A stretch of 64,000 nt of DNA from Burkholderiales bacterium 39-55-53 (GTDB taxonomy: Bacteria > Pseudomonadota > Gammaproteobacteria > Burkholderiales > Burkholderiaceae_C), in contig NCJK01000002.1 of assembly GCA_002282445.1 (NCBI GenBank), positions 372,001 to 436,000 of the forward strand, in the 5' to 3' direction. Under the pieces are notes generated by a model. That model ran no database searches, was not told the DNA's origin, and worked only from the letters and a program-made list of their open reading frames with translations. Positions 28,014 through 40,497 of the stretch are shown here, piece by piece (the first letter of the stretch is position 1; each line of letters begins with the position of its first letter). The translations under genes were made by a program, and so were the position numbers.

Positions 28014-29039
28014 TCAGATACAAATTTTCTGAATAACTTCCAGCTTCTGCTCCAACGTGTACCCAACAGTTCCATAGTTGTTGAACTCTGACCCACCGCT
28101 TGAGTGCCCCGTAATGCTCTCAGCTAAACGAGTTGGAATGTCGTTACGAGCTTTCATCCTATCTATCAGCCCGTGTCTGAACATGTGACTTCTAAAGTCC
28201 AAATCAGCCAAATACTTGTTCATAGTTGCTGAGCAAGTATTGCTGCCGTGATAGTGAGCGTACTTAGGAACAAGCCATTCACTGCCCTCCTCCTTTGCAA
28301 ACTCAACTAGCCTCTGAGCTGCAAACAATGAAATACCAACCAGAGGTACAGCCCGAATACTGCTGTTGGTTTTTCGGTTCGACAACTCGTTTCTTCGAAC
28401 CCAAATATGTGGAATGGGATGTTCCAAAACACAGTCTTCGACTCGGGCATAGACGGGCTCAGATAGACGTAATCCTGTGTTGAGTTGAATCAGTCCAACT
28501 AATTTGTAGGGTGTAAAACGAATCATCAACCTATGCTTAACCTCAAGCAACAGCTCATCAGTTATGACACGCATTGGACGACGAATCTCAACTCCTGAAA
28601 TCTTCAGGGCTCGGAATGGACTAAATCTATCAATATCAAGATAGCGAAATGCCACATTGAGCATTGCATTCAATATGGAATTCTGTTTTCTAATTGTGAC
28701 TGGCTTCAGCCCGAGGCCTAACAAATAATCTCGAAATGCACAGGCGTGTACGTATCTCAAATCTCTCAGCGGTAGATTACCCAAAAGAGAGGAAAAACGG
28801 TTGAAGACATGCAGCACATCTCCTCTGAATTTACGATTGTCACTAGCATCACTCTCGTACAAGTAAATCGCCATTGCGTCTGAAAGCAAAGGATCTGCAC
28901 CAGCTTGCTTTCTATTGAAGTAATCTGCAATGATTTCGGCTAAGAAGTCCTCATCAAACTCAACGCCTTTTACCCGAACTAACCGCCGTAAGACAGGCTC
29001 TTGAAATGTGTTGGTAATTTCAAAATCGCTGCCGCTCAC
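28014..29039 (-). CDS. Tyrosine recombinase of the second island
   Basis: A 341-aa recombinase with an N-terminal core-binding region and a full catalytic set: Arg191 in NTGLRLSEP, a Lys in NRKTNSS, box II HMFRH (His285, Arg288), GH (His312) and Tyr322 in FNNYGTVGY. It reads leftward, toward the island edge at about 28 kb, as expected for an integrase placed next to an attachment site. A CAACCGAA half-motif shared with other island promoters lies 53 bases upstream (29092-29102). Confidence 0.88.
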   Translation of the reverse strand: MSGSDFEITNTFQEPVLRRLVRVKGVEFDEDFLAEIIADYFNRKQAGADPLLSDAMAIYLYESDASDNRKFRGDVLHVFNRFSSLLGNLPLRDLRYVHACAFRDYLLGLGLKPVTIRKQNSILNAMLNVAFRYLDIDRFSPFRALKISGVEIRRPMRVITDELLLEVKHRLMIRFTPYKLVGLIQLNTGLRLSEPVYARVEDCVLEHPIPHIWVRRNELSNRKTNSSIRAVPLVGISLFAAQRLVEFAKEEGSEWLVPKYAHYHGSNTCSATMNKYLADLDFRSHMFRHGLIDRMKARNDIPTRLAESITGHSSGGSEFNNYGTVGYTLEQKLEVIQKICI

Positions 29040-29145: not shown

Positions 29146-29444
29146 TTAAACGGACTGCTTTAGCTTAGCGCTTGCGTGAAAAGTTACAGCACGTCTGGCT
29201 GCAATCAACACGGACTCCCCCGTACGTGGGTTACGGCCAGGCCTAGCTTGCTTTGTACGTACTTGGAAATTTCCGAACCCTGAAATTTTTACATCCGTAC
29301 CCGCAGCAAGTTCACGGGTGATCATTTCGAAGAACGCATCAATGAAATCCTTGGCCTCACGCTTGTTCAAGCCAATCTGCTCAAAAAGCCCAATTCAGCC
29401 TTAGTGAGGGCTGGTGTTTCAATGCTGTCAAACGAGAGTTCCAT
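29146..29444 (-). pseudogene. ihfA: IHF alpha-like gene with an N-terminal frameshift
   Basis: The last 74 codons encode an IHF-alpha body: [16 protein letters not shown], the DNA-binding arm SGFGNFQVR and [10 protein letters not shown], and FHASAKLK. From ATG 29444 another frame encodes the usual N-terminus ([15 protein letters not shown]). The expected LFEQIGL bridge exists in the sequence but in the other frame, and the first frame stops at TGA nearby, so a small deletion has split the gene. A TTG at 29370 could still give an N-truncated product lacking the first helices. The chromosome should carry an intact ihfA elsewhere. Confidence 0.75.
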
Positions 29445-29555: not shown

Positions 29556-30098
29556 TTAGAGCGGTTTTTGGTCTCGCAATGGCTTGAGTGGGTTCTCTCT
29601 TCGATGGAAAACTAGTTCGTCTTTGTCACGTTCACTGTAGCTATTGTTCATGGGGCCCACGGTAGTAGCAACTGCTGGCTTAGGCTGAATTGCTTGGGGG
29701 TGGGTGGGGGCTGGTGCTTTCTTGCTGAAGGCCTGGTGTATTTGCTGGGCAAGCTGATGGTTTTGCTGGGTCTGGGTCTGCTTAGCTTGTGCGGGGGTTG
29801 GTTGAAGTTGCTGGGGTTTGGATAGAGGCTTGGGGGCTGGTGCCATGGGGGCTCGCTTGGGCTTGTGCCCTTTTGCTGAGGTAGCCTTACGTTTGCCCAT
29901 AGCCTTAGCAGTTACAGGAGGTACCCCCTTTGTCGCAGCCTTGGGGGTTGGCTTGGCAGCAACTGTGGCAATTGGGGACTGGGGCTTAGGTGCGGTTGAT
30001 TGCTGTGGTAACTGTCCAAAAGTTGCCCATACCTTGTCTGATATCAAACGCCAAAGTGCCAATTGATCCTCAGGGCTAATGATTTCTGTAAATCGCAT
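29556..30098 (-). CDS. Pro/Ala/Lys/Gln-rich low-complexity protein
   Basis: A 180-aa protein with a short folded-looking N-terminus (about 30 residues, MRFTEIISPEDQLALWRLI) and then a long disordered, basic Pro/Ala/Lys/Gln-rich tract up to about residue 150, ending in a charged tail. AGGAG precedes the ATG. The composition suits DNA binding or a tether. It is divergent from the small gene at 30149. No family is recognised. Confidence 0.55.
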   Translation of the reverse strand: MRFTEIISPEDQLALWRLISDKVWATFGQLPQQSTAPKPQSPIATVAAKPTPKAATKGVPPVTAKAMGKRKATSAKGHKPKRAPMAPAPKPLSKPQQLQPTPAQAKQTQTQQNHQLAQQIHQAFSKKAPAPTHPQAIQPKPAVATTVGPMNNSYSERDKDELVFHRRENPLKPLRDQKPL

Positions 30099-30676: not shown

Positions 30677-31180
30677 TCAGGACAAAGCTTTGCGGCTGGG
30701 CAACCCCAAAATTGATCGACGCTCAGGCGCAGCAGATGCAGGCTCGCTCAAGCCCTCTTTAATCATGGATGTAACAGCTTCAATACGCTTATCCAATTCA
30801 CCCTTATCAGCAGCTGAGCGAATGACTTGCAACGAAGTGATCACATCGGCGATGCAGTCTGCTTCAATGGCATTCTTGCCATCGATGATTTCAAGCGTTC
30901 GTGCTCCATATCGAACGGTGATGCAAAGTTTGCCTTTGTCATCTGACCACCACCAAGGCTTAATCTTCTTGGGTACTTCAACCTTGCGACTCTCACCAGT
31001 TTCCGTATCTTTAATCGTGCGTACCTTGATGGGCGCAAACTCAGTACCGGCTTGCTGTGCTTTTGCTAGTTGGATTTGTTCATCTAGCTTGAGGCAGAAC
31101 TTTTGGCGACGGGCTTGTTGTGGGCTATTGCCCTGCTGACGTTTACTATTTGTGAATTTCAATGCACTAAGACCTGACAT
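30677..31180 (-). CDS. Hypothetical protein, DUF6641-like
   Basis: A 167-aa soluble protein. The N-terminus reads LSALKFTNSKRQQ, then a helical LDEQIQLAKAQQ, a VEVPKKIKPWWW motif, strands with KGKLCITVRYGARTLEI, and a helical end. The LKFTN-KR opening and the WWW motif resemble DUF6641 proteins as I remember them. Function unknown. A repeat copy (31242-31277) lies 62 bases upstream. Confidence 0.55.
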   Translation of the reverse strand: MSGLSALKFTNSKRQQGNSPQQARRQKFCLKLDEQIQLAKAQQAGTEFAPIKVRTIKDTETGESRKVEVPKKIKPWWWSDDKGKLCITVRYGARTLEIIDGKNAIEADCIADVITSLQVIRSAADKGELDKRIEAVTSMIKEGLSEPASAAPERRSILGLPSRKALS

Positions 31181-31298: not shown

Positions 31299-32873
31299 TT
31301 AGTCAACTGAAAGATTGGCAAAGTGCTCTCTAGCGCGTCTTTCTTCTTCTTGGATTCTGGCTTTGTGCTCTGCTTCTGCCAACTCAAGATCTAAGTGCCT
31401 GGGCTGATATCGCTCTAGCTGCTTTGGTGACAAGTACCAATAAGGATTATTGGAATGTTCACGCATGGAAAGCTCGCACTCGTGCTTCAAATCGATTCCA
31501 AGCTTCTTTTTAAAGAAGATGGCATCATGAACACTTGCTATTGGCTCTCGTCCATGGTCTTTAGCAACTGACCTAACAACATCCATAATTTCGGTTTCAT
31601 AGTGCTGATACAGGTACGCAAGAATCTTCGACTTACTGGATCTGCCACTAGGAGTTTTTAAGAAACTTTTAGCTAGTAAATCTTTGCGATGAATTTTGAC
31701 AACATCGTATATGTGAGCATCCAACTCGCTTTGCTCATGGATAAATGCATTGACAGTTGAATCCGCTAAGAAACGCTCCCTGTCTTTACTGTTTTGAATG
31801 ATGTCAACGATTGCTGGATTACTCCACCCGCCAGCTTCGTTTTGCCAGCCAACGCTGCTCACCCTTGCGCCAAAACTGATTGCAGTAAATGCTTGTTTCA
31901 AGAGTTTGGGTTGTAAATCTTTTGGGACAGGGCTATCTTCTTCAAAAGTGAAATATCGCACTGTTGCCATGAAGTCCGCTTTATCCTCAAGGAATCCAAG
32001 GGTTGCGCTAAACACACGACGCAAGTTCTCTCCCATTCCACGGCTATCGATGTAGCTTTGAGCCCATCCCATCTTCCAAGCTACAACGCTTGAGCGGATG
32101 TCGTACTCCCAACAATCACCAAGCACTGCCCTGCGCAGTTCTTTGTTGATGTTTTGAACGCTGACGCCCTCGTAATACATTCGTCCAAACTCACTTGGCT
32201 TTCTGCGCTGCAAGTAATTTCCATTCATGACACTTGCTACACCTAAAATAATTTTGGCTTGGCGTAGTGCTTGCTGTTTTTTTTCAAGAGATAGAAGCTT
32301 TGCTTCAGTAGCAATCCAGAAGATGTAGCTCTTCAATGACTCAATGTCGACCTCTAGTAAATCAAAATAATCCTGAATTGGCTTACTTTCGAACTCAGCA
32401 GACAACTCAGGGTACAAAGCATTCACGAGCTGATAGTTACTGAACTCGTCACCTAAGAGGTAAGCGTCGAGCGCTTTATCAGTTTTCGCTGATTTCAATA
32501 TTTCTTCCTCAACCTCTAACGTGTCAATCACAGTTACCCATTTGGTCAATTTGCACTGACTGAGTTGACCATTTAAGTTAGATCCAATGATCACTGCTTC
32601 AACAAGATTGAACCTGTTGTCCTGCAACCACTTATGAACACGAATTTTGTTAGGTCCAATTTGTCCTCCCTGCTGCGCTAACTTTTCTAGAGACAAAGAA
32701 AATAGGTCTAGCTTTCGCTGCAAAGGCGTCGCTTCATAGTGCAGACTCTTGAAGAGCATCTGCTCCAAAACTGTGATGTATTTAGTGATGGCTTTTTTAG
32801 CAGAGGCAGCTGGTTTGGGAAAGGCCTTACTTAAGGCCTCATAAACTGCGCTGTTTACGGTGATCTTAATCAT
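31299..32873 (-). CDS. Putative divergent palm-domain polymerase (replication-type) of the island
   Basis: A 524-aa soluble protein with a GGAG site before its ATG. No annotation is obvious, but three segments in order resemble motifs of family A polymerases and single-subunit RNA polymerases. Motif A-like WEYDIRSSVVAWK contains Asp258. Motif B-like KQAFTAISFGAR (326-337) recalls AIxFG of DNA polymerase I, with Thr330 where the usual Lys would be. Motif C-like ASVHDAIFF has His449-Asp450, followed by a charged helix. The N-terminal 200 residues are helical and the tail is Glu/Arg-rich. It lies about 1.1 kb from a DnaA-box repeat, which suits a replication role. The assignment is an inference from short motifs. 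Confidence 0.5.
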   Translation of the reverse strand: MIKITVNSAVYEALSKAFPKPAASAKKAITKYITVLEQMLFKSLHYEATPLQRKLDLFSLSLEKLAQQGGQIGPNKIRVHKWLQDNRFNLVEAVIIGSNLNGQLSQCKLTKWVTVIDTLEVEEEILKSAKTDKALDAYLLGDEFSNYQLVNALYPELSAEFESKPIQDYFDLLEVDIESLKSYIFWIATEAKLLSLEKKQQALRQAKIILGVASVMNGNYLQRRKPSEFGRMYYEGVSVQNINKELRRAVLGDCWEYDIRSSVVAWKMGWAQSYIDSRGMGENLRRVFSATLGFLEDKADFMATVRYFTFEEDSPVPKDLQPKLLKQAFTAISFGARVSSVGWQNEAGGWSNPAIVDIIQNSKDRERFLADSTVNAFIHEQSELDAHIYDVVKIHRKDLLAKSFLKTPSGRSSKSKILAYLYQHYETEIMDVVRSVAKDHGREPIASVHDAIFFKKKLGIDLKHECELSMREHSNNPYWYLSPKQLERYQPRHLDLELAEAEHKARIQEEERRAREHFANLSVD

Positions 32874-33111
32874 CTGCTACTCCACGGCTACAGGACTCAT
32901 AAAAATCCTGGAATTCCAATGTATTTAGCTGGTTTATACAGATTTCTCGGAAAAACGCAAAAAGTCACATGCTTATAGTAATTTCATCATCCAAATGACC
33001 TGATATGTACCCACATAGCCAATTGATTGGTTATTGAGCTAATTCAAGCAAGTCCTTCCTTTGCACCTGGATCACTTCGCGACGACCCGACAGCACTTGC
33101 ATAAGTACTAG

Positions 33112-33284: not shown

Positions 33285-33641
33285 TCAATACTCGCTGGGC
33301 AACATGATCACCCAGTGCTCTCCGTCCCAGCAGGCGTACAACGAAACAGCTACCATCGGAAAATCCGTGTACGGGATCTCTTGCCTTGCTAGTTCTTTGC
33401 CATTTCCGTCGTCATAGATCATGGTTGCTTTGATGCCATGCACCTGCACCTTGATTTGTACGAACCAGTCATGTGTATCAATTTCGCTGACGTGACTGGC
33501 AATCGCGTCCATCATCCAAAAACACTCCGCCTCTTCTGCCAAGTACTTTGTGCCATCAGTTAACAAATGGCGTCGGCTAATGCGATAGTACTTCTCAGTG
33601 CCAGTGAAGTAAGCAAGTTGTGAAGCGTCGAAATTTTTCAT
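33285..33641 (-). CDS. DUF6876 family protein
   Basis: A 118-aa protein with the family pattern LAYFTGTEKYYR, TDGTKYLAEEAECFWMMD and a C-terminal YACWDGEHWVIMLPSEY. DUF6876 proteins are small, soluble and of unknown function, and are typical of plasmids and integrative elements. Copy 2 of the island motif lies 51 bases upstream of its start. Confidence 0.75.
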   Translation of the reverse strand: MKNFDASQLAYFTGTEKYYRISRRHLLTDGTKYLAEEAECFWMMDAIASHVSEIDTHDWFVQIKVQVHGIKATMIYDDGNGKELARQEIPYTDFPMVAVSLYACWDGEHWVIMLPSEY

Positions 33642-33970: not shown

Positions 33971-34005
33971 CGCGAGTTATCCACAGAGCGCGTGAGTTAT
34001 CCAAA
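33971..34005 (+). promoter_or_regulatory. Tandem DnaA-box repeat (possible origin)
   Basis: GAGTTATCCACA at 33974-33985 contains the perfect DnaA box TTATCCACA. It recurs 20 bases later as GAGTTATCCAAA with box TTATCCAAA (33997-34005). The flanking GCGCGAG/GCGTGAG also repeats. A run of A and an A+T-rich stretch follow to about 34080. This layout suits a plasmid-type replication origin. Confidence 0.55.
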
Positions 34006-34080
34006 AAAAATCACGAAAAACATTGCTTTTCAATGATTTCATGGCTAAGTCATTGATTTTGTTAGACCACTAAATCGTGT

Positions 34081-34176: not shown

Positions 34177-34749
34177 ATGGCACAAGCAAAAACACTCAAC
34201 AGCACAGACATTGAACTAGTGCTTGCATATGTAGAGACACGTGCACACGCGCATCGCAATCGTGCAATGCTGCTACTCACTCACCTTGCAGGTCTTCGTG
34301 TCGGGGAAGTGGCTTGTTTGCGGTGGCAAGATGTCACAAACATGGACGGAACAGTTAAAGATGAAATTCGCTTGCTGCCTGATATGACCAAAGGGCGTCA
34401 TGCACGCACAGTGTTTGTGAGCAGCAAATTGAAAGGTGAACTCCAAGCGTATGCAGCTCAGGCCAAATGCGTGGATCGTAGCTACCCATTCTTTGCAACA
34501 CAAAAAAGCGTCAAGCACGGGTTCTCGGCAAATAGCCTCGCTCAGACACTCGCACTGCTGTATCTCGGAGCTGGACTCGAAGGAGCCAGTAGCCACAGTG
34601 GTCGTCGCAGTTTTTTAACAAATTTGGCCAATAAAGGCACTTCAATTCACTTGCTCAAAACGCTTGCTGGGCACCGCAGCATCCAAACCACCGCCGCATA
34701 TCTTTACAGCAGTCCTGCGCAGCTGCGCGCAGTTGTTGAGTTGGTTTGA
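34177..34749 (+). CDS. Catalytic-domain-only tyrosine recombinase
   Basis: A 190-aa protein with all catalytic residues of the family: Arg41 in AGLRVGEV, Lys72 in TKGRHAR, His140/Arg143 in HSGRRS, His166 in AGHRS and Tyr175 in TTAAYLY. The N-terminal core-binding domain of larger integrases is missing. GGAAG precedes ATG 34177; the frame extends to 34096 but that region carries the repeat motif. Short recombinases of this kind act in plasmid resolution or element excision. It sits at the right end of the island, next to a repeat copy at 34754. Confidence 0.85.
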   Translation: MAQAKTLNSTDIELVLAYVETRAHAHRNRAMLLLTHLAGLRVGEVACLRWQDVTNMDGTVKDEIRLLPDMTKGRHARTVFVSSKLKGELQAYAAQAKCVDRSYPFFATQKSVKHGFSANSLAQTLALLYLGAGLEGASSHSGRRSFLTNLANKGTSIHLLKTLAGHRSIQTTAAYLYSSPAQLRAVVELV

Positions 34750-34836: not shown

Positions 34837-35406
34837 CTAGCTTAGCAAATTCAAATAGTGTAATTTTTTAAGTAACTCAGCTCCTGCATCATCTAATGTT
34901 GAGTTGTTAATTATTTCGATCAAATTGGAACCTGCTGGAATTGAAATAGGAACGGTCCTCATTAATCGAGCATTGATAGCCTCTTCTGGTTCACGACCAC
35001 GACTTACTAGGCGCTGCCGAAGTACTTCAGTGCTGGCGGTAACGTGCAACACAGTCAAACCCGAAAAAGCTCTCGCCGCAGTAGGCAAGTGCGCTCTTGA
35101 ACCATTGACAATCACACACCATGATGGATAACTTAAATGTTTCAACTCATCCGAACGAATTCCGTATCGGTGTGTGTTGGCCTCCCATTGCATAGCAAAT
35201 TCGCCATCAGCCACCATTCGTTCGAAGGTTTCTGCATCTACAGGGAAATGATCTTCTGCATTTGGCAGATCAACTTTGGGGCGATCAATAGTTCGCTTGG
35301 CCCAATGCACTGGAGCGGTCAACGGTGTATGTTGACGCAACCACGACAGCACACTGTCTTTGCCAGCACCTGAGGGGCCAACTACATAAATTAAACGTCG
35401 ATTCAT
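34837..35406 (-). CDS. phnN: Ribose 1,5-bisphosphate phosphokinase
   Basis: A 189-aa kinase with P-loop VVGPSGAGKDSVL near the N-terminus and a guanylate-kinase-like fold (VHWAKRTIDRP, then AMQWEANTHRYGI). PhnN makes PRPP from ribose 1,5-bisphosphate, the last step of the C-P lyase pathway, returning the ribose to nucleotide synthesis. Its start overlaps the DUF1045 stop by 4 bases. It is the last gene of the minus-strand phnF-DUF1045-phnN operon. Confidence 0.93.
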   Translation of the reverse strand: MNRRLIYVVGPSGAGKDSVLSWLRQHTPLTAPVHWAKRTIDRPKVDLPNAEDHFPVDAETFERMVADGEFAMQWEANTHRYGIRSDELKHLSYPSWCVIVNGSRAHLPTAARAFSGLTVLHVTASTEVLRQRLVSRGREPEEAINARLMRTVPISIPAGSNLIEIINNSTLDDAGAELLKKLHYLNLLS

Positions 35407-36125
35407 GATGTGAGCAAAACTTGATCAAACAACTGGAAATCTGCTCCACGCTCAGGCTCAACAAACAATGCAAGTCGATCAAATCGACATGCCGGCAAAT
35501 GTCCAAAGTGCGACATAGCGGCCTCTTGCCATTGGGCAAGCTGAGCTTTTGAAAGGTTATCTAATCGCCCCGTGAGAGATAAATGAAATGAGAATTCATC
35601 CAACACATACGGATATCCCCAAACCTGCAACAACTGGTCTTGCAAGGGCGTTAGCTGTGCCATTCGACGACGAGCCAACTCTGATTCACCTAAAGGAACT
35701 GCCAATTGATGTAAGCCAGTTACACAAGCGTCGCCTGCACGTTGAATCTCAGCGCTACTGTCTTGAGGACGCAAGGCCATGTACCCCCCATCCGTACTAA
35801 CTTTCATAGCTGGTAAATCAAAAGCCGGCAAAGATTTACCAATTTCGCGCAAGGCCAACATCACAGAACGTAAGTCGATGCCAGGAACAATTTTAAAAGG
35901 CGCTTTAAGAGTGGCGTGCCACCCGTAACGACGGGGCTCTGCTGTAAGAGCCCATTGTTCTTTGGACGAAACGCCATCTATCAAAGGCTGAAGTACCGGC
36001 TGACTTGTCGCAGCGCAACGTCCGAGCCAAGAACTACCAGCGTCCCACCAGACGCTATCTGGATCGGGCACAAAGTACACCGCACAACGGTACGGTGTGC
36101 CTAGATATTTCGCATCAAGAATCAT
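35403..36125 (-). CDS. DUF1045 phosphonate-associated 2H phosphoesterase-like protein
   Basis: A 240-aa protein found in C-P lyase loci (DUF1045). It carries the two HxT/S motifs of the 2H phosphoesterase superfamily: His70-Ala-Thr-Leu in YGWHATLKAPF and His181-Leu-Ser-Leu in FSFHLSLTG. Many 2H enzymes open cyclic phosphodiesters. phnP, whose product opens 5-phosphoribosyl 1,2-cyclic phosphate, is missing from this locus, so this protein is a good candidate to do that step. It overlaps phnN by 4 bases and phnF by 11. Confidence 0.85.
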   Translation of the reverse strand: MILDAKYLGTPYRCAVYFVPDPDSVWWDAGSSWLGRCAATSQPVLQPLIDGVSSKEQWALTAEPRRYGWHATLKAPFKIVPGIDLRSVMLALREIGKSLPAFDLPAMKVSTDGGYMALRPQDSSAEIQRAGDACVTGLHQLAVPLGESELARRRMAQLTPLQDQLLQVWGYPYVLDEFSFHLSLTGRLDNLSKAQLAQWQEAAMSHFGHLPACRFDRLALFVEPERGADFQLFDQVLLTS

Positions 36126-36855
36126 GATGGTTCACCGTCAATGTCACGCGGTCGCCCGCAAACCAAGCTTTGGAAAATTCAATCGGCACGTTGCTTAGAT
36201 CCACGTTCACACTGGTCACCAACAAAGCTGGACGAGTTATTGGCTGAGACAAATGTTCAGCCACATCTTTATTGGGCAAACGTGCGCTGATACGGCTCTC
36301 TAGCCGCATGTAATCCAACACACCGTGCTGTGCAAACGCTTCGGTGATGGAGCCACTGCTGCGTACCACTTCAGCCAAATTGGCAAATCTTGGCAACGGA
36401 AACCACCGCTCACTCACATGCAGTGGCTGACTGGCGCCCTCACCCAGCACTTGCAAATACAAAAGCGCGCTACCCACATCCATATGCAAAGCCTGCGCCT
36501 CATCCAACCCCGCTTGAACCTCACAGGCTCGCAACACTTGCAGACCACCACGCAAGCCAGCATGCGACAAACTGTGGCGATGTCGCGTACGTTTGCCCAA
36601 AACCAAATCCACCGCAAAAGACTCGACAAACGTACCTCGACCCTGTGCAGCATGCACCAAGCCGCGCTGTACCAAGCTAGCCAAAGAGCGCCGAATAGTG
36701 TGACGGTTCACGCCAAACTGCTGAGCCAAGCTGTGCTCTGACGGCAAGCGCACCCCTGGCGCATACACGCCTTGCCCAATCGCCTCGGCCAACTCATTAG
36801 CGATGCGCGACCAAAAGCGATCGGGTTCACCTGAAGAAGAAATCACATCCGTCAT
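36115..36855 (-). CDS. phnF: GntR/HutC-family regulator of phosphonate genes
   Basis: A 246-aa regulator from ATG 36855 (the frame extends to 37023 but then overlaps the phnG promoter and gene). The N-terminal winged helix has ELAEAIGQGVYAPGVRLPSEHSLAQQFGVNRHTIRRSLASL, paraphrased as a classical GntR domain over residues about 15-75. The C-terminal UTRA ligand domain has YLQVLGEG and SERWFPLPRF. It is divergent from phnG, and a TTGTATAGACAA dyad in the shared gap and before phnC is its likely operator. It probably represses phn genes until a pathway intermediate binds. Confidence 0.93.
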   Translation of the reverse strand: MTDVISSSGEPDRFWSRIANELAEAIGQGVYAPGVRLPSEHSLAQQFGVNRHTIRRSLASLVQRGLVHAAQGRGTFVESFAVDLVLGKRTRHRHSLSHAGLRGGLQVLRACEVQAGLDEAQALHMDVGSALLYLQVLGEGASQPLHVSERWFPLPRFANLAEVVRSSGSITEAFAQHGVLDYMRLESRISARLPNKDVAEHLSQPITRPALLVTSVNVDLSNVPIEFSKAWFAGDRVTLTVNHHDS

Positions 36856-36898
36856 GAAAGTTACACATGCATTGCCTAAGCTTGCATGCATGCTTGAG

Positions 36899-36910
36899 TT
36901 GTATAGACAA
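36899..36910. promoter_or_regulatory. PhnF operator in the phnF-phnG gap
   Basis: TTGTATAGACAA, a 12-bp near-palindrome (TTGT-N4-ACAA) in the 74-base divergent gap. The same 12 bases occur before phnC (43225-43236). HutC-type regulators bind sequences of this kind. Confidence 0.75.
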
Positions 36911-36929
36911 GTGATAGGGTGCCATAAAG

Positions 36930-37427
36930 ATGTTTCAGCCGTTTGACAAAAGCTCGCCGCCTTCGCGCCAGTCGTGGATGGCCTTGCTGGCCAGAGCGCC
37001 ACAGCCCTTGCTAGATCACGCACTCGGGGGACTGGCTGACAACCCGCACCAATGGCTTCGCCGGCCCGAAACGGGTTTGATGATGGTGCAAGGACGTGTG
37101 GGTGGCACGGGCGAGCGTTTCAACCTCGGTGAGGTTACCGTCACACGCTGCGCCCTGCGCTTAAGCGGTTCTGCCACCGATGCGCCTGTAGGTGTGTCCT
37201 ATGTGCTGGGCCGCAACCACCGCCAAGCTCAGCTTGCCGCTGTGGCCGATGCGCTGCTGCAAGACCCTGCCCAGCTCGCGGCACTAGAGGCTAGTTTGCT
37301 GACTCCACTGCGTGAACACCTGCAACAACAACAAGCTGAGCGTCACGCACGTGCACAAACTACCAAGGTGGACTTCCTCACCGTAGCCCGCGAAGCCGGT
37401 GGCGACGACGAAGGAGAAGAGTCATGA
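36930..37427 (+). CDS. phnG: C-P lyase subunit PhnG
   Basis: A 165-aa protein with the PhnG opening SRQSWMALLARAP, then GLMMVQGRVGGTGERFNLGEVTVTRC (paraphrased core at residues about 45-70) and VSYVLGRNHRQAQLAAVADALLQD. PhnG is part of the PhnGHIJ core that makes alpha-D-ribose 1-methylphosphonate 5-triphosphate. It is the first gene of the plus-strand operon, which is visibly G+C-richer than the flanking chromosome. Its stop overlaps the phnH start (ATGA). Confidence 0.95.
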   Translation: MFQPFDKSSPPSRQSWMALLARAPQPLLDHALGGLADNPHQWLRRPETGLMMVQGRVGGTGERFNLGEVTVTRCALRLSGSATDAPVGVSYVLGRNHRQAQLAAVADALLQDPAQLAALEASLLTPLREHLQQQQAERHARAQTTKVDFLTVAREAGGDDEGEES

Positions 37428-38041
37428 AAACGCAAGACTTGCAACACATAGTCGCAGGCTTTAGCCACGAAGCCTTTGGCAGCCAAGCCGTGTTTCGGGC
37501 TGCGCTGGATGCGCTGTCCCATCCCGGCCGTCCAGGGATCATGCCGATCGACTGCTCACTGCCACGACATGGCCAGCCCGCAGCAGCCGCCTTGCTGCTG
37601 GGTTTGCTGGATGCAGACACCCGCCTGTGGCTCTCGCCCGCCTTGGCCCGCAGCGATGCTGCGCCGTGGCTGCGCTTTCACACAGGTTGCCACGTCGTGG
37701 CCGAGGCAAGTGACGCCAACTTTGTATGGGTAGCGCTGGGCGATGCGCTGCCCGCCCTCGCCAGTCTGCGTTTGGGCACCGATGCCTACCCTGATCAATC
37801 GGCTACTTGCGTGGTCGAAACGCTGGCTGTACATGCCGACGTGGCAGGCTGGACGCTGCAAGGCCCGGGCATTCAAGACCAACGTCATCTGCAGGTGACG
37901 GGGCTCACGCCTGCGTTCGCTGAGCAATGGAAACTCAACCACGCCAGCTTTCCCCGCGGTGTGGATGTGTTCCTCACCACGCCCACCCACGTGGTCGGCC
38001 TGCCGCGCACCACGCGCATCGTCCACACAGAGGAGATCTGA
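37424..38041 (+). CDS. phnH: C-P lyase subunit PhnH
   Basis: A 205-aa core subunit. Family features are the N-terminal AGFSHEAFGSQAVFRAALDALSHPGRPG region (residues about 10-37), the LLLGLLDADTRLWLSP strand, and the C-terminal FPRGVDVFLTT segment. PhnH supports the PhnGIJ complex structurally. Overlaps phnG by four bases, and phnI follows after a single base. Confidence 0.95.
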   Translation: MKTQDLQHIVAGFSHEAFGSQAVFRAALDALSHPGRPGIMPIDCSLPRHGQPAAAALLLGLLDADTRLWLSPALARSDAAPWLRFHTGCHVVAEASDANFVWVALGDALPALASLRLGTDAYPDQSATCVVETLAVHADVAGWTLQGPGIQDQRHLQVTGLTPAFAEQWKLNHASFPRGVDVFLTTPTHVVGLPRTTRIVHTEEI

Positions 38042-38042
38042 T

Positions 38043-39155
38043 ATGTACGTGGCCGTCAAAGGCGGTGAAACCGCCATCCTCAACAGCTACAAGCTACTCG
38101 CCGAGCAGCGCCGTGGCGACACCGCCCAAGCCGAACTCACCGTCGATCAAATTCGCCAACAGCTTAAACTGTCGGTGGACCGCGTGATGACCGAGGGCTC
38201 GGTGTACGACCCTGAACTCGCAGCACTCGCCATCAAGCAAGCCAGCGGCGATTTGGTCGAAGCCATCTTTTTGCTGCGCGCCTACCGTGCCACCCTGCCG
38301 CGCTTGGGCAACACCTGCGCGCTGGACACATCACGAATGCAGCTCGACCGCCGCATCTCCGCCACCTTCAAAGACCTGCCTGGCGGGCAAGTGTTGGGCC
38401 CTACCTATGACTACACCCAACGCTTGCTCGACTTCACCTTGCTGGCCAATGGCCAAGCCGCAAACACAGGGACAGACGATCCTGCTAAAGCGGCAAGCGA
38501 CGCCACTCCGCCACCCGCCGTGCCGCGTGTGGTGGACTTGCTCAACCAAGAAGGTTTGATCGAAACCTTCCCCTGCCCTGCGCACGACCCCAACCCCATG
38601 GACCTCACGCGTGAGCCGTTGCGTTTTCCTGCAGACCGTGCCACGCGCTTGCAAAACATCGCCCGCGGTGACGAAGGCTTTTTGTTGGCCATGGCCTATT
38701 CCACCCAACGCGGCTATTCACACACCCACCCCTTTGTGGGCGAGGTGCGCATGGGCCAAATCGCGGTCGAAATCGAACCCGAAGAACTGGGCTTTGCCAT
38801 CTCGATCGGCGATCTAGAAATCACCGAATGTGAAATGGTCAACCAGTTTGGCGGCAGCAAAACCGAGCCCCCCAAATTCACACGCGGCTACGGTTTGGCC
38901 TTTGGCCACAGCGAACGCAAAGCCATAGCCATGAGCTTGGTCGACCGCGCCCTGCGTGCCGACGAGTTGGGCGAAGCCATTGAGTCGCCTGCGCAAATGC
39001 AAGAGTTCGTACTCTCGCACAGCGACAGCTTGGAGGCCTCGGGCTTCGTGCAGCATTTGAAGCTGCCGCACTATGTGGACTTTCAGTCCGAGCTCGAGTT
39101 GGTGCGCAAGATGCGCGCGAGCTACGGCAGCGACAGTCAAGAGGAGCAAGCATGA
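38043..39155 (+). CDS. phnI: C-P lyase subunit PhnI
   Basis: A 370-aa subunit starting MYVAVKGGETAI, the family start. It contains DQIRQQLKLSVDRVMTEGS, later the LARLLNQEG-type segment VVDLLNQEGLIE, and the conserved AYSTQRGYSHTHPFVGEVRMG motif near residue 220. PhnI is the nucleosidase-like subunit that, with PhnG, H and L, attaches phosphonate to ATP ribose in place of adenine. The upstream frame extension to 37959 lies in phnH and is discarded. Confidence 0.96.
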   Translation: MYVAVKGGETAILNSYKLLAEQRRGDTAQAELTVDQIRQQLKLSVDRVMTEGSVYDPELAALAIKQASGDLVEAIFLLRAYRATLPRLGNTCALDTSRMQLDRRISATFKDLPGGQVLGPTYDYTQRLLDFTLLANGQAANTGTDDPAKAASDATPPPAVPRVVDLLNQEGLIETFPCPAHDPNPMDLTREPLRFPADRATRLQNIARGDEGFLLAMAYSTQRGYSHTHPFVGEVRMGQIAVEIEPEELGFAISIGDLEITECEMVNQFGGSKTEPPKFTRGYGLAFGHSERKAIAMSLVDRALRADELGEAIESPAQMQEFVLSHSDSLEASGFVQHLKLPHYVDFQSELELVRKMRASYGSDSQEEQA

Positions 39156-40033
39156 ACACCCCCCATACGGCAGCGAATCAAGACACCACTCCAGACGTGA
39201 ACTTCGCGTATCTGGACGAGCGCACCAAGCGCATGATTCGCCGCGCCATCCTCAAAGCTGTTGCCATCCCCGGCTACCAAGTTCCATTTGGTTCTCGCGA
39301 GATGCCACTGCCCTATGGCTGGGGCACAGGCGGTATTCAAGTGACAGCTTCGGTCATTGGGCCAGACGACACCCTCAAGGTCATTGACCAAGGTTCCGAC
39401 GATACGGTCAACGCTGTAAACATCCGCCGCTTCTTTGAACGCACAGCAGCTGTGAACACCACCACACGCACCCACGAAGCCACGCTGATTCAAACGCGTC
39501 ACCGCATTCCCGAAAAGCCCTTGGTCGAAGGCCAGATCATTGTGTTTCAAGTACCTGTGCCTGAACCCATGCAACGCTTGGAACCCCGCGAAACTGAAAC
39601 GCGAACCCTTCACGGCTTGGCCGAGTACGGCCTGATGCACGTCAAGCTGTACGAAGACATTGCCCGCTACGGCCACATCGCCACCACCTACGACTACCCC
39701 GTCATGGTGAATCACCGCTACATCATGTCGCCCTCGCCCAACCCCAAGTTTGACAACCCCAAGATGCATATGAACCCTGCCTTGCAGTTGTTTGGGGCGG
39801 GCCGCGAAAAACGAATTTACGCCGTGCCGCCCTACACCTCGGTGGAGAGCTTGGCGTTTGAAGACCATCCCTTTGAAATCCAAAAATGGAACGCGGTGTG
39901 CGCCAAATGTGGTGCCACAGATTCGTTCCTTGACGAAATCATCACCGACGATGCGGGCGGCCGCATGCACGTGTGCTCGGATTCCGACTACTGCCAAACA
40001 CGGCAAGACGATCAATCGTCGGAGGCCGCATGA
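39152..40033 (+). CDS. phnJ: Radical SAM C-P lyase PhnJ
   Basis: A 293-aa enzyme that breaks the carbon-phosphorus bond, releasing the alkane and 5-phosphoribosyl 1,2-cyclic phosphate. The four functional cysteines appear as C-x2-C-x21-C-x5-C in CAKC ... HVCSDSDYC (Cys250, 253, 275 and 281). The spacing is exactly that known for the cluster ligands plus the active cysteine. The N-terminal FAYLDERTKRMIRRAILKAVAIPG is typical. Overlaps phnI by 4 bases. Confidence 0.98.
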   Translation: MNTPHTAANQDTTPDVNFAYLDERTKRMIRRAILKAVAIPGYQVPFGSREMPLPYGWGTGGIQVTASVIGPDDTLKVIDQGSDDTVNAVNIRRFFERTAAVNTTTRTHEATLIQTRHRIPEKPLVEGQIIVFQVPVPEPMQRLEPRETETRTLHGLAEYGLMHVKLYEDIARYGHIATTYDYPVMVNHRYIMSPSPNPKFDNPKMHMNPALQLFGAGREKRIYAVPPYTSVESLAFEDHPFEIQKWNAVCAKCGATDSFLDEIITDDAGGRMHVCSDSDYCQTRQDDQSSEAA

Positions 40034-40497
40034 GCCTAGACGTGAGCGAGAACATGAAGATTGATGTGCGACAAGCCACTGTTGCCGATTTACCTAGCGT
40101 CTTGGCCCTGTATGCGCAGCCGGCCATGGACAACGGCAAGGTGCTGACGATTGAAAAAGCAGAACAGCTGTTCGCGCAGTTCAATCAATACCCCAACTAC
40201 CGATTGTTTGTGGCCTCGGAGGACGACATCGTGGTGGGCACTTTCGCTTTGTTGGTCATGCACAACCTGGCTCATCAAGGCACGCCCTCGGCGATCGTCG
40301 AAGACGTGGTGGTGAGCGACACGCACCAGTCGCAAGGCATTGGCCGCGACATGATGCACCACGCCATGACACTAGCTCGTGAGGCGGGTTGCTACAAGCT
40401 GGTGCTGTCATCCAATCAAAAACGTGAACGTGCCCATACGTTTTATGAGTCGCTGGGTTTTCAGCGACACGGCTTTAGTTTTTCAATCGAGATTTGA
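40030..40497 (+). CDS. GNAT acetyltransferase inserted in the phn operon
   Basis: A 155-aa N-acetyltransferase of the GNAT fold. Acetyl-CoA binding is marked by the QSQGIGRDMM loop (R/QxxGxG), after the DVVVSDTHQ strand, and the end reads HTFYESLGFQRHGFSF. It lies between phnJ and phnK and overlaps phnJ by 4 bases (ATGA), so it is part of the operon. PhnO of other bacteria, also a GNAT, acetylates aminoalkylphosphonates and related toxic by-products; the end of this protein resembles PhnO, so the same role is likely but unproven. Confidence 0.85.
   Translation: MSLDVSENMKIDVRQATVADLPSVLALYAQPAMDNGKVLTIEKAEQLFAQFNQYPNYRLFVASEDDIVVGTFALLVMHNLAHQGTPSAIVEDVVVSDTHQSQGIGRDMMHHAMTLAREAGCYKLVLSSNQKRERAHTFYESLGFQRHGFSFSIEI

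Follow-up and report, generated by a model that had tools for sequence, protein, structure and literature searches.

A TV-Pol-like family A polymerase as the probable replication protein of a small integrative element with tyrosine recombinases

A stretch of 64,000 nucleotides of Burkholderiales bacterium 39-55-53 (hereafter the window) contains a small integrative element that encodes, on the minus strand at 31299..32873, a TV-Pol-like family A polymerase of 524 amino acids with an ATG start. We propose, with a probability of roughly 0.6, that this catalytically competent member of the Pol I superfamily is the replication protein of the element, which is bounded by tyrosine recombinases. This reading builds on the fold and homology of the protein, its kept catalytic residues, the purifying selection acting on its gene and the co-occurrence of that gene with DnaA boxes. 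Since the catalytic residues are kept and the gene travels with a host replication-start signal, the island is probably copied by its own polymerase. Observations that stand against it include the lack of significance of the direct profile match to Pol I and the absence of a helicase family above the cut-off among the element genes scanned.

Fold and homology of the island polymerase

The original prediction had read this open reading frame as a divergent palm-domain polymerase, its three motif blocks being spaced compatibly with family A DNA polymerases or single-subunit RNA polymerases. The reading frame and the three blocks were confirmed at the residue numbers that had been given, namely motif A (WEYDIRSS, residues 255-262, including D258; 32088..32111, minus strand), motif B (KQAFTAISFG, residues 326-335; 31869..31898, minus strand) and motif C (ASVHDAIFF, residues 446-454, including H449-D450; 31512..31538, minus strand). 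A structure predicted with AlphaFold from 21 alignment rows (pLDDT 86.8, pTM 0.79) gave 97 matches in the PDB with Foldseek at E ≤ 0.001 (best E 4.8e-7), and the best 50 of these 97 all bear titles of family A DNA polymerases. The enzymes listed include Pol I, apicoplast Pol, T7 DNA polymerase, Pol theta and Pol nu, and their TM-scores are low (0.31-0.37 by query length). In the viral library, the best match was a full-length one to an uncultured Caudovirales phage protein (E 5.4e-29, 25% identity), followed by replication proteins of virophages (Zamilon, Qinghai Lake virophage; E about 1e-7). We consider a family A polymerase fold very likely for this protein.

By sequence, the protein was named by none of the libraries searched. 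It had no Pfam family above the cut-off (best E 0.01, under the curated score), no PHROG and no PADLOC match, and nothing significant in the PDB with either the single sequence (best E 0.41) or the profile. A match to a Staphylococcus relaxase was taken as a chance one, and tblastn searches of phages and plasmids brought up nothing beyond marginal local matches (E 0.04 to 0.9). Compared to Pol I, with which it shares the fold and, through the TV-Pol-like set, the catalytic residues, the island polymerase does not match PF00476, a family that the source genome's own Pol I does match, and no exonuclease domain was recognised in it. Among the papers listed from the open-access literature searched, none describes this polymerase family by its title or the start of its abstract.

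Ahead of the catalytic core lies an alpha/beta N-terminal domain (residues 1-218; 32220..32873, minus strand) in the AlphaFold model, to which Foldseek gave no name (best E 0.21; winged-helix regulators are among the weak matches). Judged by eye, the order of its predicted elements (helices 62-68 and 79-85, strands 91-95 and 105-109) appears winged-helix-like. Two further helices are predicted ahead of the palm, at residues 177-189 and 196-215.

The link to Pol I passes through a set of five TV-Pol-like proteins, comprising the Polaromonas plasmid proteins of pW9NP1 and pH8NP1, an ORF of a Desulfovibrio phage, another of a Calothrix plasmid, and MAP_030 of cyanophage LMM01, which may be the LMM01 protein meant in the original TV-Pol description. 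The first four were reached through chains of tblastn searches whose first links are weak. MAP_030, which the motif pattern search did not return, was chosen by eye for its agreeing motifs and adjoining transposase; it has an E of 10 against the island family profile and was retained because of its tblastn matches to pH8NP1 (E 2e-4) and to the Calothrix plasmid (E 4e-8). The proteins encoded by phage LMM01 (L036, 22746-24266) and by loci L032 (37-1653) and L035 (5926-7431) carry annotations such as hypothetical or Clp N-terminal domain protein; judged by motif and profile, they are TV-Pol-like polymerases.

The island family matched this set with a probability of 98.4, an E of 6.9e-15 and a score of 121, the best of 40 column shuffles reaching 22.6. 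The set in turn matched a profile of 49 Pol I-type sequences, made of the 48 Pol I loci, out of 54, that passed a motif filter and of T7 DNA polymerase, with a probability of 87, an E of 3.6e-6 and a score of 53 (best of 40 shuffles, 21.6). Compared directly, the island family and Pol I gave no significant match (E 0.035, with a score of 24.4 that the best of 40 shuffles equalled). Neither did the island family and four T7-type RNA polymerases (E 0.022, with a score of 28.6 that exceeded 39 of 40 shuffles), a comparison whose shuffle control is noisy, since one shuffle of the island family scored 133.9 and the next 24.9. The TV-Pol-like set against the T7-type RNA polymerases was not significant either (E 0.28, score 19.9, just over the best shuffle at 19.5). 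By direct profile comparison alone, Pol I is therefore no closer to the island family than the T7-type RNA polymerases are.

Through the TV-Pol-like set, motifs 1, A, B and C are in register with the family A superfamily: the GR, LQN, R, D, K, YG, Q and HD of the set fall on the matching Pol I features, and the K of K-x3-[TL]-x3-[FYN]-G-A aligns on the K of AK.INFG.IYG in Pol I. From the alignment of the two lysines it follows that K326 corresponds to K758, T330 to F762 and F334-G335 to Y766-G767. This register rests on profiles and conservation, and a predicted helix at 321-333 that encloses K326 agrees with it. The original prediction had the motif B lysine replaced by threonine, which proved to be a register slip of one helical turn: K326, present in 18 of 18 rows of a wider alignment, pairs with K758, and the column of T330 holds T in 15 rows and L in 3.

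The element, its relatives and DnaA boxes

The mobile-island setting that had been proposed was found to be an element with a tyrosine recombinase at both ends and recurrent core genes. One end is formed by a short tyrosine recombinase of 190 amino acids (34177..34749, plus strand; PF00589, E 1.7e-21) and the other by a second one (28014..29039, minus strand; PF00589, E 1.5e-10). Between them, all on the minus strand, lie a recurrent gene for a DUF6876 protein (33285..33641; PF21781, E 1e-33), the polymerase gene, a co-oriented downstream gene for a DUF6641 protein (30677..31180; PF20346, E 2.7e-12), a recurrent element protein of cluster c4 (29556..30098) and an HU/IHF-like protein (29146..29370). 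The latter covers positions 17-89 of the 90 of PF00216, and is perhaps truncated as the first 16 profile positions are missing. Searches for the element ends and an empty site found none, the left flanking gene occurring in 4 of 37 genomes. Directly adjoining the element, at 34837-40497, is what we take to be a phosphonate (phn) gene cluster, where the GC content climbs to 57-62%, compared to about 44% on the left side.

Elsewhere in the source genome (loci L022 and L165; C7, about 297.8-318.6 kb), a related element of about 20 kb also lies between two recombinases and carries the polymerase. It additionally carries an AcrB-family efflux gene with its neighbours, and an ORF that looks by eye like a P-type ATPase lies just outside. 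Among the genes scanned in the window element and in L022, no helicase family exceeded the cut-off; small uncharacterised proteins remain.

The distribution of the polymerase was assessed in a sample of 61 genomes (the source genome, 36 of the same genus and 24 others of the order). Matches were found in 8 of them, all in the genus, at 11 places, of which 4 are in the source genome. No pair among these four copies exceeds 74% identity, and one of the four shares 95% identity with copies from other genomes, which suggests that they arrived separately and did not arise by recent duplication. In a profile search, a single genome matched among 300 of the order and again among 369 of the class, both times the source genome only. 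Ten relatives were confirmed in a collection of genome contigs, seven of them in MAGs and one (L014) identical in sequence to L004, under the record names Limnohabitans (3), Betaproteobacteria, Burkholderiaceae, Oxalobacteraceae, "Rhizobiales" and Methylococcales/Methylococcaceae (3). One more relative was found among viral contigs, and two relatives sit on plasmids whose other genes include those for RepA and ParA. We infer a Limnohabitans-like host within the Comamonadaceae.

The DUF6641 gene is more widespread, occurring at 26 places in 12 of the 61 genomes (11 of the genus and one of another family). Five of the 26 places adjoin the polymerase, and the 16 that were fetched are all devoid of a full polymerase gene: one (L145) has a fragment of 97 amino acids matching the polymerase and 15 show none in view, some of the fetched contigs being only 3-5 kb long. 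The remaining five places are outside this count. As the same core genes recur without it, the polymerase is an optional module of the element and is not required by all such elements. The DUF6641 protein, of which we found no mention in the open-access papers searched, is a candidate OB-fold or SSB-like partner adjacent to the polymerase, and also occurs without it. Large genes stand beside DUF6641 or the polymerase in L141, L143 and L018; from their size and mutual similarity, they look like type I restriction-modification cargo.

The window harbors a single exact DnaA box, TTATCCACA (33977..33985, plus strand), followed 20 bp further by a DnaA-like box with one mismatch, TTATCCAAA (33997..34005, plus strand). 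Beside them is a stretch with 72% AT (34000..34059), a candidate unwinding region. In the 500 bp that precede the short integrase, exact boxes, 12 in total, were present in 7 of the 8 polymerase loci having the integrase in view, the eighth (L016) showing only 306 bp upstream of it, and in none of 8 loci without a full polymerase gene, the fragment-bearing L145 included. Two exact boxes precede the short integrase of the fourth source-genome copy once the element end is included, and all four polymerase elements of the source genome have DnaA boxes at this place. L171, whose contig is cut at the polymerase start, has one exact box 131 bp upstream of the integrase. Counted within 5 kb of the polymerase gene, exact boxes occur in 8 of 18 loci, several on short contigs, with none in L026, L015 and L016. 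No exact box occurs in the 190,320 bases of the 16 DUF6641 loci that lack a full polymerase gene, where about 1.5 would be expected. The source genome has 24 exact boxes versus 14 occurrences of the reversed control word; 8 of the 24 are inside the four elements and 4 more surround two genes read by eye as dnaN and dnaA. The association was noticed before it was counted, so that chance figures for it are after the fact, and they ignore kinship. Indeed, the integrases of seven box-bearing loci form one clade (98/98), and the association therefore amounts to about two independent lineages.

These boxes might instead be arm sites of this clade's integrase and no origin at all, which would leave the link between polymerase and replication loose. 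Their position just upstream of the integrase and the single clade formed by seven of the loci both fit this explanation, which we nevertheless find rather unlikely: the box is an exact 9/9 match to the one clustered at the host locus read as dnaA, and an exact box is also present in the Oxalobacteraceae locus L017, outside the clade. Somewhat less likely still, the polymerase could be cargo rather than a replicator, that is, a defence or stress gene in the variable slot of a defence island, for instance one copying invader DNA or RNA. Its optional presence agrees with such a role (five of the 26 DUF6641 places are beside it and the 16 fetched are without the full gene), as does a nearby gene whose copies in three polymerase loci (L025 13173-14102, L012 2161-3090 and L015 891-1820) belong to one sequence cluster. 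This gene adjoins the short integrase in L025 and L012, and the L025 member, the only one whose protein was scanned, matches the PADLOC candidate defence family PDC-S02 (E 9e-161). However, the polymerase itself has no PADLOC match, DnaA boxes accompany it and are missing where it is absent, and its relatives on plasmids are accompanied by genes for RepA and ParA.

Active-site residues and the upstream 21-nt box

Conservation was scored in two alignments. The close alignment has 21 rows, 20 of them distinct (L004 and L014 being identical), and one row stops short of the motif region, leaving 20 rows (19 distinct). No variation was observed in these at R231, Y233, Q240, R247, E256, D258, K326, T330, F334, G335, A336, Q423, E426, H449 and D450. 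The wider alignment has 18 rows, five of which are plasmid, phage or viral-contig proteins, and keeps 13 invariant columns: R231, Y233, Q240, R247, L251, D258, K326, G335, A336, Q423, E426, H449 and D450. The invariance of key residues across the aligned relatives indicates that the three motif blocks are not a chance occurrence, and the check on Asp258 and Asp450 that the original prediction had suggested found both unchanged in 18 of 18 rows. No third invariant Asp exists in the 18-row alignment; D385 is nearly invariant, in the closer family only. An additional block ahead of motif A, FGR.YY.G.S.QN....LR (residues 229-247), which the original prediction lacked, was placed by profile alignment on the GR...LQNIP...R block of Pol I. 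Its R231, present in all 18 rows, lies between predicted strands at 219-226 and 232-234.

Seven pairs of island polymerases were tried for dN/dS, of which four were saturated at synonymous sites. The three measurable close pairs gave 0.027 (L012-L013), 0.058 (L003-L009) and 0.047 (L003-L013), and the gene is thus under strong purifying selection in these pairs. Low dN/dS and invariant active-site residues together point to a working enzyme. An inactive, divergent palm protein whose role is structural or regulatory, an option that had been left standing beforehand, is accordingly improbable: the threonine at the F762 position and the rarity of an Arg four residues before the motif B Lys (1 of 18 rows) speak for it, and the 18/18 invariance of both Asp, the Lys, Gln, His and hairpin Arg, with the selection in three pairs, against it.

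Nucleotide choice may nevertheless differ from that of Pol I. The E710 place is occupied by V263, encoded just after motif A, with V in 19 and A in 1 of the 20 close rows (19 distinct), and the F762 place by T330 in all 20 (19 distinct), while the Tyr766 position is a Phe (F334). As aligned, both ribonucleotide-rejecting positions of Pol I are lost (E710 to V263 and F762 to T330), which suggests a weaker rejection of ribonucleotides.

The polymerase gene is preceded by a 21-nt box, ACTATAWGNNNNTRACTTTTT (32959..32979, minus strand), located 85 bp ahead of its start. The source genome has four perfect copies, one per polymerase gene, and one further place with two mismatches, and the sample of 61 genomes has 17 perfect copies in 8 genomes. 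ACTATAWGNNNNTRACTTTTT is upstream of the polymerase in 14 of the 15 loci scanned, including L016 and L018 of other classes. The exact box is absent before the polymerase in L017, which shows a variant by eye, and in L020 and L026, which are without the TGTGACTT core. At five polymerase-less places (L166, L167, L169, L172 and the second copy of L168), the left flank resembles that of polymerase loci and the right one differs, by eye, from the end of the box on; similarity to polymerase-less loci stops at this same end. L168 has the box twice, about 2.1 kb apart, around two genes. The left flank can form a hairpin, seen by eye, whose arms vary by locus (TGACCCA/TGGGTCA or CCAAT/ATTGG), and an inverted repeat with the palindrome TGGAATTCCA, variable at other loci, is found just upstream of the polymerase start (window 32900-32927). 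The box may be a promoter with an operator, or a recombination boundary. It was also considered as a site of high-copy cassettes; its 141-bp surroundings occur at only 15 places in 8 of the 61 genomes, so it does not belong to a high-copy cassette array.

Transcription of the element from the 21-nt box by a T7-like single-subunit RNA polymerase, the other enzyme class first considered for this protein, is very improbable: the profile scores given above (28.6 for the family and 19.9 for the TV-Pol-like set), a small residue at the E710 position, where T7 RNA polymerase has a Gly, and ACTATAAG, which we take to resemble phage promoters loosely, speak for it, but neither score is significant, no such enzyme is among the 50 PDB matches listed and the perfect box occurs in the source genome only once per polymerase gene.

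Proposed mechanism and comparison with known systems

For a replication protein, the following course can be proposed. The element would excise, integration and excision both being the work of the tyrosine recombinases, and host DnaA would open the DnaA-box and AT-rich region of the element (33977-34059). The polymerase would then begin the new strand and lengthen it, using D258, D450 and K326 and assisted by a host helicase and other host factors, and its N-terminal domain may bind the origin or place the polymerase. Primer synthesis by the polymerase itself is a proposal on which we lean slightly to the doubtful side. Priming with ribonucleotides is a more speculative proposal, and an unlikely one in our view, prompted by V263 and T330 in place of the ribose-rejection residues and by F334 at the place of Tyr766. 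The same doubt applies to the full scheme of a DnaA-fired integrative element in which a single A-family enzyme makes ribonucleotide primers and elongates them with deoxynucleotides.

The available part of the original TV-Pol description defines a small family A catalytic core with a conserved hairpin Arg, two Asp and a fingers Lys, with an extra N-terminal domain in some members, encoded on mobile elements with integrases or resolvases and proposed to act as primase and polymerase (Iyer, Abhiman and Aravind, 2008, PMC2579912). A conserved Asp in the fingers and a thumb made of two antiparallel helices are further TV-Pol features. The island polymerase similarly has two palm Asp, the hairpin Arg R231, the fingers K326, an extra N-terminal domain and a mobile setting with integrases. 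However, in the register used here it lacks the Arg of the RxxxK signature, as do its LMM01, pW9NP1, pH8NP1 and SRB7757 relatives, and we thus label it TV-Pol-like rather than a strict TV-Pol. It also differs by the absence of a recognised D5-type helicase beside it and by the accompanying DnaA boxes, which that part of the description does not mention for TV-Pol. T7-type single-subunit RNA polymerases are given there as distant superfamily relatives (Iyer, Abhiman and Aravind, 2008, PMC2579912).

A family A polymerase of an integrative element has precedents for primer synthesis in CcPol-MP and PolA-SSB (Bebel, 2020, PMC7581432; Rice, 2023, PMC10061031). In the available texts of these papers, CcPol keeps the equivalents of E710 and F762 and primes with dNTPs (Bebel, 2020), and the PolA-SSB primase examples are all from Bacillota (Rice, 2023). 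On the contrary, the island polymerase has V263 and T330 at these two places, and no helicase was recognised among the element genes scanned; by its aligned residues and recognised gene neighbours, it is not of the CcPol-MP type. In its proposed mode of action, it nevertheless resembles a TV-Pol or CcPol.

With the present finding, the A-family polymerases known from mobile elements come to include one of freshwater proteobacterial islands, paired with DnaA boxes in place of a helicase of the element. It bears on whether TV-Pols outside SCCmec can prime, none of which had been characterised according to the available text of Bebel (2020, PMC7581432). The protein offers a natural enzyme in which both ribose-rejection residues of Pol I appear replaced, the catalytic Asp and Lys being retained. 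Should ribonucleotide priming be true, the enzyme would count as an RNA-tolerant primase-polymerase that belongs to neither the DnaG nor the AEP family and requires no helicase of its own.
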